Shown: positions 10,499 to 32,376 of the stretch, piece by piece
How positions within the stretch are numbered: the stretch's first letter is position 1
Layout: every line of letters starts with the position of its first letter
DNA from: Verrucomicrobiales bacterium
GTDB taxonomy: Bacteria; Verrucomicrobiota; Verrucomicrobiia; Verrucomicrobiales; DEV007
Length of the DNA: 64,000 nt
NCBI GenBank assembly: GCA_029213065.1
Contig: JARGPH010000004.1
Location: 62,001 to 126,000, forward strand
Direction: 5' to 3'
The notes under the pieces: generated by a model
What the model was told of the DNA's origin: nothing
Databases searched by the model: none
Seen by the model: only the letters and a program-made list of their open reading frames with translations
Translations under genes and position numbers: made by a program

Positions 10499-11866
10499 AT
10501 GCAGAGGCGTTACTTTGGAACCGACGGAATTCGCGGCGAAGCGAATATTCACCCCCTCACTCCGGAGTTTATCGTCCGGCTGGGACAGGCCGCAGCTGAG
10601 GCATTCCTCGAAAAGCGCGGGGATTCCAGAGAATGGCCATCGGTCGTGATCGGCCGGGACACCCGCCAGTCAGGCGACATGCTCGAGAGCGCGATTGCCG
10701 CGGGCCTCAATTCGCGGGGCATCGACGTTCGCCTCGCCGGGGTCATTCCCACCCCTGCAGTGGCATTGCTCACGAGAGAAACCGGAGCCGCCTTCGGCAT
10801 CGTCATCTCCGCCTCTCACAATCCCTTCGGCGACAACGGGATCAAATTTTTCGGTCCCGACGGTTTCAAACTCGATGACGAATTTGAACTTGAGATCGAA
10901 CGACGACTCGAACTCGACCCATCGGACAAGAAGTGGTCCATCGGCCGCACCTCTGTGATCAAAGACGCCACGGAACGCTATGTCGCCTTCGTCCGCGAGA
11001 GCGCAGGACACGATCCTGATTTGCTCGACGGAATGGTCATCGCACTCGACGCCGCGAACGGAGCCGCCTTCGAATCCAGCGAATCAGTCCTCCGCTCGCT
11101 CGGCGCTGAGGTCAAAGTGAGCCACAACCGTCCCAGCGGCATCAACATCAACGAAGACTGCGGCTGCACCCACGCCGAAGTCATCGAGCAACTCGTAAAA
11201 GAGGCAGGCGCGCACGTGGGTGTCTCACACGATGGCGACGCCGACCGCGTCCTCCTTTGCGACGAAAACGGATCGGTCCTCGACGGGGACGAACTCATGG
11301 CGATCGCCGCAAAGGCGATGATCGAAGACGGCACCCTTAAGGACAACACCCTCGTCGCAACCGTGATGAGCAACGCCGGACTCGAAGAGGCAATCAACTC
11401 TTTCGGAGGAAAAGTCGAACGCACCGGAGTGGGAGACCGCTACGTGCTCGAAGCGATGAAAGCCAACGGATGGAACCTCGGTGGCGAGCAAAGCGGGCAT
11501 TTCATTTTCATGGATCACAACACGACCGGTGACGGCATCGTCGCGGCAGTTCAGTTACTGAAGATCCTCCGTGAGAGTGGAAAACCCCTCAGCGAACTTC
11601 GCCGGATCATGACGAAGTTCCCCCAGATTTTGAAGAACGTCAGGGTCAGCCGGAAGGTCCCCATCGAAGAGCTCGCCGCCGGGGAGCTCCTCCGGAAAAT
11701 CGAAGACGAACTCGGTACTGCAGGACGCATCATGCTCCGCTACTCGGGCACCGAGCCGCTTCTGCGAATTCTCATCGAAGGGAAAGACGCCGATTACATC
11801 CACGAGGCCGCCGAAGAACTCGCTGCTGCGATCATCGCTGAAATCGGCGAAACGGTTGCTTCATGA
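10499..11866 (+). CDS. glmM: Phosphoglucosamine mutase
   Basis: 455 residues, the normal GlmM length. It interconverts glucosamine-6-phosphate and glucosamine-1-phosphate for UDP-GlcNAc, hence peptidoglycan and LPS synthesis. Visible signatures are the opening YFGTDGIRGEAN, the phosphoserine loop ISASHNPFGDNG (S106 as the phosphorylated residue), the metal loop SHDGDADRVL, the sugar loop GGEQSGHFIF, and the phosphate-binding RYSGTEPLLRI near the C-terminus. In other bacteria GlmM binds and inhibits CdaA; its place directly after the cyclase cluster fits that partnership. Its stop overlaps the start of bioD by four bases (ATGA). Confidence 0.97.
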   Translation: MQRRYFGTDGIRGEANIHPLTPEFIVRLGQAAAEAFLEKRGDSREWPSVVIGRDTRQSGDMLESAIAAGLNSRGIDVRLAGVIPTPAVALLTRETGAAFGIVISASHNPFGDNGIKFFGPDGFKLDDEFELEIERRLELDPSDKKWSIGRTSVIKDATERYVAFVRESAGHDPDLLDGMVIALDAANGAAFESSESVLRSLGAEVKVSHNRPSGININEDCGCTHAEVIEQLVKEAGAHVGVSHDGDADRVLLCDENGSVLDGDELMAIAAKAMIEDGTLKDNTLVATVMSNAGLEEAINSFGGKVERTGVGDRYVLEAMKANGWNLGGEQSGHFIFMDHNTTGDGIVAAVQLLKILRESGKPLSELRRIMTKFPQILKNVRVSRKVPIEELAAGELLRKIEDELGTAGRIMLRYSGTEPLLRILIEGKDADYIHEAAEELAAAIIAEIGETVAS

Positions 11867-31659: not shown

Positions 31660-32376
31660 ATGTTCAGTCGTAGACAATCCCCCACCCTCCCCCTCCCCGT
31701 CGAAGATGGAATCGTTTCCGCTCAAATCCTGCAGCTCGACCGGGAAACGGCGGCAGGGAGTTATGAAACGATCACGTTCGGCCTCGGTTGATTCTGGGGC
31801 CCCGACTCCCGGTTCGGGAGTCTCGATGGAGTGCTCAGAGTCCGCGTCGGCTATTGCGGCGGGACAAAAGAAAGCCCTTCCTACTACGATCTGGGCGATC
31901 ACACCGAAGCCGTCTCGATCGATTACGATCCGGATGTGATTTCATTCGATGGAATGCTGGAGCATTTCTGGGCGGCTCATCAGCCAACCCGCAACAACGC
32001 GAGCCGACAGTATCTTCACGCCCTCTTCTATCGAAGCGAGGCGCAAAAGGTGGCCGCTGAGAAATCCCTGACCGCCGTTGCTGCGGAGCTTGATCTTCCC
32101 GAAAGAAAAATCGAGACGGAGATTATTCCGATGCGCGAGTTCACCTACGCGGAAGACTACCATCAGAAATACTACCTCACGCAGTATCAGGAGTTGCGGG
32201 AGTTTCTCGTCAGGACCTATCCGACCGGAAAGGCACTTGCCGATTCAACCGTAGCGACGCGCCTCAACGCCTACCTCTTCTCCGGACTGGACAACGCCTC
32301 CGAGCGCCTTGAAAAAGAGATCGATTCCTATGATCTCCCCGAAAACCTGAAGGCCCTCGTAGGCTCCCGGATTTGA
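31660..32376 (+). CDS. msrA: Peptide methionine sulfoxide reductase MsrA with in-frame TGA (probable selenocysteine) at the active site
   Basis: 238 residues when the TGA at 31789-31791 is read as residue 44. It reduces methionine-S-sulfoxide in proteins. The MsrA active-site motif G-C-F-W-G reads here as FGLG-(TGA)-FWGPDSRFG, so the TGA replaces the nucleophilic cysteine exactly. Everything downstream is intact MsrA (RVGYCGGTKESPSYYDLGDH, EAVSIDYDP, HQPTRNNASRQYLHALFY, KYYLTQYQELREFL). The ATG at 31660 is the first start after an in-frame TGA at 31651. A bacterial-type SECIS stem-loop follows the TGA. A naive call would begin at the GTG at 31831 and lose the active site. Alternatives are a nonsense mutation or a sequencing error at one base; the hairpin argues against both. 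sel genes are not in this window. Confidence 0.85.
31789..31822 (+). promoter_or_regulatory. Predicted bacterial SECIS element after the TGA codon
   Basis: Twelve bases after the TGA (31789-31791) a perfect 7-bp stem, GACTCCC/GGGAGTC, closes a GGTTC loop (31811-31815). The loop begins with G and contains GU, as does the SelB-binding loop of E. coli fdhF, whose apical hairpin starts 11 bases after its UGA. The TGA-to-loop distance, 19 bases, is within the range known for bacterial SECIS elements. It is inside the coding sequence, as bacterial SECIS must be. Confidence 0.78.

Follow-up and report, generated by a model that had tools for sequence, protein, structure and literature searches.

The DNA analysed here (the window) is a stretch of 64,000 nucleotides (nt) from a Verrucomicrobiales bacterium (GenBank assembly GCA_029213065.1, contig JARGPH010000004.1, positions 62,001–126,000, forward strand), and it carries an msrA gene whose reading frame contains a single internal TGA codon (Table 1). 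The read-through product matches PF01625 (PMSR) with an E value of 7.7e-39, and the internal TGA aligns with the catalytic cysteine (Cys) of the GCFWG motif, as a first-pass annotation of the sequence had placed it; the 194 codons of MsrA frame that this annotation gave after the TGA were counted again between the internal and the terminal TGA, and the perfect 7-bp stem with a GGUUC loop that it described 12 nt past the TGA was located. An ordinary listing of open reading frames (ORFs) yields, as had been anticipated, only a GTG-started fragment of 181 amino acids (aa) at 31831–32376. A real protein thereby loses its active site and is easily mis-called.

Table 1. Features of the msrA locus, in window coordinates (Sec, selenocysteine; SECIS, Sec insertion sequence; bSECIS, bacterial SECIS).
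Feature	Positions	Strand	Basis
msrA coding frame, 238 residues, predicted Sec at 44	31660–32376	+	ATG at 31660, stop TGA at 32374–32376; Pfam PF01625
TGA predicted to encode Sec (Sec44), catalytic position of GUFWG	31789–31791	+	TGA in 35/35 alignment rows (rows picked for TGA)
Catalytic MsrA domain, residues 37–177	31768–32190	+	Pfam match
Predicted bacterial SECIS-type hairpin, 7 bp (stem 31804–31810 / 31816–31822, loop GGUUC 31811–31815)	31804–31822	+	Pairing test, covariation, fold, bSECIS model
Cys66 codon (GYCGG), 22 residues past Sec; sole Cys besides the Sec site	31855–31857	+	Translation, alignment rows
C-terminal helical domain of C. oremlandii MsrA type, about residues 178–238 (approximate boundary)	32191–32373	+	Homology to residue 230, model helices, fold match

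Relatives were gathered from a contig scan, in which the best 80 of at least 577 loci were kept (19 with TGA and 61 with Cys at the catalytic site; L067 was excluded from later counts), and from a search of 114 genomes including the window's own, 101 of which gave some MsrA match and 17 the close form. The 19 TGA loci included members of Bacillota, Planctomycetota, Acidobacteriota, Synergistota, Chloroflexota, Myxococcota and Thermodesulfobacteriota. Sixteen of the 17 close-form genomes carry the TGA, and the sequence of the remaining one (G028, locus L117) ends at the contig start before the site. Taken together, 34 relatives of the same type with a readable site have TGA at the same codon and four haloarchaeal orthologues have Cys, with no random stops among them. 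When 387 genomes were sampled evenly across the phylum, only two had a match passing E 1e-33, G333 and the genome of the window, and each match contained one TGA. A pseudogene, or a TGC or TGT misread in sequencing, might produce the same picture of one TGA interrupting a Cys-type motif that is good in every other respect, and the window's genome also holds a second MsrA of the normal Cys type with a PMSR domain (G000:C52:183578-184036). Against this, 34 further homologues from several phyla share the TGA at this codon, which makes a sequencing error very unlikely, dN is much lower than dS in 6/6 pairs of relatives on either side of the TGA (at most 33 codons before it and 90 after, with dS high or saturated in most of the six pairs), and the hairpin is under synonymous constraint, as described below. 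A pseudogene or an erroneous base call is accordingly extremely improbable.

The genes to which the first-pass annotation had pointed, selA, selB, selC (tRNA-Sec) and selD, form a complete set in the window's genome (an assembly of 5.9 Mb in 80 contigs, completeness 96.21, contamination 3.01). On contig C52, selA (501 bits), selB (292 bits) and selD (380 bits) all exceed the cut-off and lie within ~10 kb, and a tRNA-Sec on the same contig scores 60.6 bits against a gathering score of 47 and is reported by ARAGORN as tRNA-SeC with anticodon TCA. Stretches of C52 (50 kb) agree with the window in GC content (0.552 vs 0.555) and tetranucleotide composition (r 0.984), and five stretches from other genomes gave r values of 0.708–0.960; since other genomes reach 0.960, the assignment of C52 and the window to one genome is supported but unproven. 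The selD gene has one in-frame TGA of its own (L020:1531-1533, on G000:C52), in the context SSCAGUASKLS, with a hairpin 32 nt past it whose loop is GGUUC as in msrA; 4/200 shuffles fold as well. The msrA frame would also stay open if UGA were read as some other amino acid, through a recoded code or a suppressor, as it would under any UGA reassignment. TGA is nevertheless an ordinary stop in this DNA, ending msrA itself and 17 of the 39 non-overlapping frames of at least 250 aa in the window, the Sec machinery is present and the internal TGA falls at the catalytic Cys/Sec position, all of which leaves such a reassignment barely conceivable.

selA matches also co-occur with TGA-containing msrA among the 114 genomes, 58 of which have a selA match at E <= 0.001 and 55 one exceeding the cut-off (selB and selD were searched for in the window's own genome). 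A selA match was present in 16/16 genomes with TGA-MsrA and in 42/98 of the others (Fisher p 9.4e-6, uncorrected for kinship); when only matches above the cut-off were counted, these values became 15/16 and 40/98 (Fisher p 6.5e-5, likewise uncorrected), the match in G038 being partial and below the cut-off. tRNA-Sec scored above the cut-off in 10 of the 16 carriers. Two tRNA-Sec matches above the cut-off per genome were observed in G010 (C73), G036 (C328) and G038 (C417 and C134).

In the window, the loop of the hairpin lies 19 nt from the TGA. On its own the hairpin folds at -12.7 kcal/mol, which was matched by 1/200 dinucleotide shuffles, and it is contained in the best fold of longer stretches of 45 and 60 nt; the best structure of a 42-nt stretch differs from it. 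Checked by hand against the bSECIS model quoted in PMC13188914, it falls within the limits for loop, stem, spacing and energy, whereas seven relatives differ from that model in having a register shifted by one base and a 6-nt GAGUUC loop. These properties fit a predicted SECIS, which SelB may bind and which Sec insertion may need.

Conservation of the hairpin was assessed by permuting synonymous codons within each gene and counting pairs at the seven stem positions, in 35 TGA rows (19 from the contig scan and 16 from the relatives' genomes, the window included) and in 74 Cys rows as controls. This way of counting at the hairpin columns was adopted after a weak result with minimum free energy (MFE) and with the aligned sequences known, the Cys rows and slid registers serving as controls. 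The TGA rows had a mean of 5.57/7 pairs vs 3.66 under the null, a value reached in 0/2000 permutations, which is not a clean probability because the rows are related; 20 of the 35 rows individually gave p <= 0.05, and the window row alone had 7/7 pairs vs a mean of 3.86 (p 0.017). There was no excess in the four haloarchaeal Cys orthologues (1.25 pairs vs 1.71) or in the 70 other Cys MsrA (2.26 vs 2.28). Covariation at the stem in the 35-row alignment was 0.249 vs 0.131 after shuffling (0/500), with slid registers at 0.121 or below; pairs with both sides changed numbered two, which is not unusual (203/500 shuffles reach that). The loops were GGTTC (14 rows), AGTTT (11), AGTTC (9) and CCTTT (1), and the loop codons CGG (14), CAG (13), GAG (7) and GCC (1). 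The seven GAG rows pair in a register shifted by one base (5.86/6 pairs vs 2.97, 0/5000), with z scores of 6.4 in the shifted and 2.9 in the first register, where they have no inner pairs; the shifted register fits these rows partly by construction, because it was defined from them. The shift goes with the identity of the loop codon, which is CGG, CAG or GAG in 34/35 rows, and the choice of codon and of amino acid here both seem to be constrained by RNA structure. The hairpin might instead be a by-product of the peptide PDSxFGSL and of base composition, with Sec insertion needing another signal, given that shuffled codons still yield more than half of the seven pairs and that some slid registers exceed the null. 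The excess over the synonymous null, its absence from the Cys homologues and the shifted pairing of the GAG-loop rows make this very improbable.

Several observations count against a selenoprotein at this locus. Stems slid by -1, +1 and +2 also lie above the null in the 35 TGA rows (z 7.8, 5.1 and 3.7 vs 11.2 in register), those slid by -3, -2 and +3 showing no excess; the GAG rows contribute to the excess at -1 (z 6.4), the other 28 rows giving z 5.0 there vs 11.1 in register. The GCC row, L042, has no hairpin at the stem columns (1/35). The MFE of the whole region is a weak discriminator against synonymous shuffles, with p <= 0.05 in 4/35 TGA rows (mean z -0.99) and in 4/74 Cys rows (mean z -0.04), and in the window the fold energy of the longer stretches is unexceptional, being equalled by 58/200 shuffles at 45 nt and by 10/200 at 60 nt, so that the case for the hairpin is a comparative one. 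In 6 of the 16 carriers tRNA-Sec was not found even with laxer filters, nor did ARAGORN return one from the stretches around selA in the same six; this counterpoint stands but is weak, given draft genomes and an initial pass that scored only part of the candidates. Finally, support for Sec in MsrA stops short of the protein level. On the other side, the TGA is conserved, as is the hairpin apart from the shifted register of seven rows and its loss in L042, the Sec machinery is present in the genome and homology extends over both domains of the protein. Weighing these together, we put the probability at about 0.95 that the internal TGA encodes selenocysteine, as the first-pass annotation proposed, and that the product is a selenoprotein MsrA of the C. 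oremlandii type, for which we infer Sec insertion, activity and reductant.

This is a known type of enzyme, Sec-MsrA, its motif and its domain layout being already in print. The first-pass annotation had noted that Sec MsrA is described in a few bacteria and algae, and PMC13188914 reports Sec MsrA with GUFWG/H in certain bacteria. The best solved relatives of the window protein are entries for C. oremlandii MsrA (CoMsrA), with E values of 3.1e-48 and up over residues 38–230. A model built from a 32-row alignment (predicted local distance difference test, pLDDT, 95.1; predicted template modelling score, pTM, 0.91) has helices in the C-terminal part, and its best fold match is 4LWJ (E 1.6e-21, TM score 0.75 on the query and 0.86 on the target, 42% identity), the top seven matches all being CoMsrA structures at 41–43% identity. 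The C-terminal helical domain, which is absent from other MsrA structures, is present here according to homology, model and fold match. CoMsrA (PDB 4LWJ, 4LWK, 4LWL, 4LWM, 4U66) and the window protein have in common Sec in GUFWG (predicted for the window protein) and the catalytic and C-terminal helical domains; they differ in the N-terminus, which is longer in the window protein (Sec at 44 vs 16), and in Cys66, CoMsrA having no Cys at all (PMC4333827). According to PMC4333827 and PMC4479559, CoMsrA occurs naturally with Sec, and its activity is 20-fold that of the Cys form; it depends on the helical domain, and glutaredoxin rather than thioredoxin recycles it. Its active-site residues as listed there (Tyr47, Glu55, Gln89, Tyr90, His137 and Tyr140; PMC4333827) map, by homology offsets, to the invariant columns Y75, E83, Q117, Y118, H168 and Y171.

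Because of this homology the catalytic mechanism can be carried over from CoMsrA. SelB with Sec-tRNA(Sec) would recognise the hairpin 12 nt past the UGA, and Sec would enter the chain as residue 44. Attack of the Sec selenol on methionine-S-sulfoxide would set methionine free and turn the selenol into a selenenic acid. Glutaredoxin would reduce this acid, perhaps after a first step by Cys66, and the C-terminal helical domain would presumably keep the active site in shape. Two glutaredoxin matches were found in the genome, both without an internal stop.

A tree of 48 rows was built from 32 Sec rows and 16 Cys rows picked from the 74 (L037, L038 and L042 were omitted as short; L105 is the window itself). 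The helical-domain type formed one group of 36 rows (support 100/99) comprising 32/32 Sec rows and the four haloarchaeal Cys rows, and the window grouped with two rows of the same genus (100/99). The canonical Cys MsrA, such as the second MsrA of the window's genome, share the PMSR catalytic domain with this type but have Cys in place of Sec, show no excess pairing at the hairpin columns (70 rows) and fall on the opposite side of the tree. Since 32 of the 36 helical-domain rows have Sec and the other four are haloarchaeal with Cys, Sec seems to be the usual state of this type across several phyla. The haloarchaeal rows (L043–L046) combine the helical-domain type with Cys at the Sec site, a long branch and no hairpin excess, and perhaps represent a Sec-to-Cys replacement. 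A second group of TGA-MsrA occurs in the window's genus (L120 and L121), with the motifs SUFWH or GUFWH; the L120 match also contains a TAA, located before the stretch used for analysis. In genome G050 the main-group copy is accompanied by a further one with TGA (G050:C28:7426-8022, 42% identity).

Cys66 is the last residue of a strand predicted by the model (58–66). It is found in 15/16 rows of the lineage's main group (L105–L118 and L135, not L119; L117 and L135 lie outside the tree and were grouped by identity), in neither of the two sister-group rows (L120, L121) and in 0/19 outside Sec rows, other Cys occurring at scattered positions in many rows. As regards assignment to the 1-Cys class, the C-terminal part is free of Cys, but Cys66 is present. 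Resolution of the oxidised Sec44 by Cys66 through an internal selenenylsulfide, which would give the window's lineage a modified catalytic cycle, is an unlikely proposal; Cys66 could equally be structural, since GYC also occurs in some Cys MsrA (L084, L122, L123, L124, L130). A literature search limited to parts of a few papers found no Sec-MsrA with the GYCGG Cys.

In a crude codon-usage scan of the window for TGA-interrupted genes, which is no selenoprotein census, the msrA TGA ranked fourth. The three higher-scoring TGA codons, on the minus strand at 11227, 38194 and 19042, are flanked on both sides by coding-like codon usage; they are probably shadows, because a long plus-strand frame encloses each of them.
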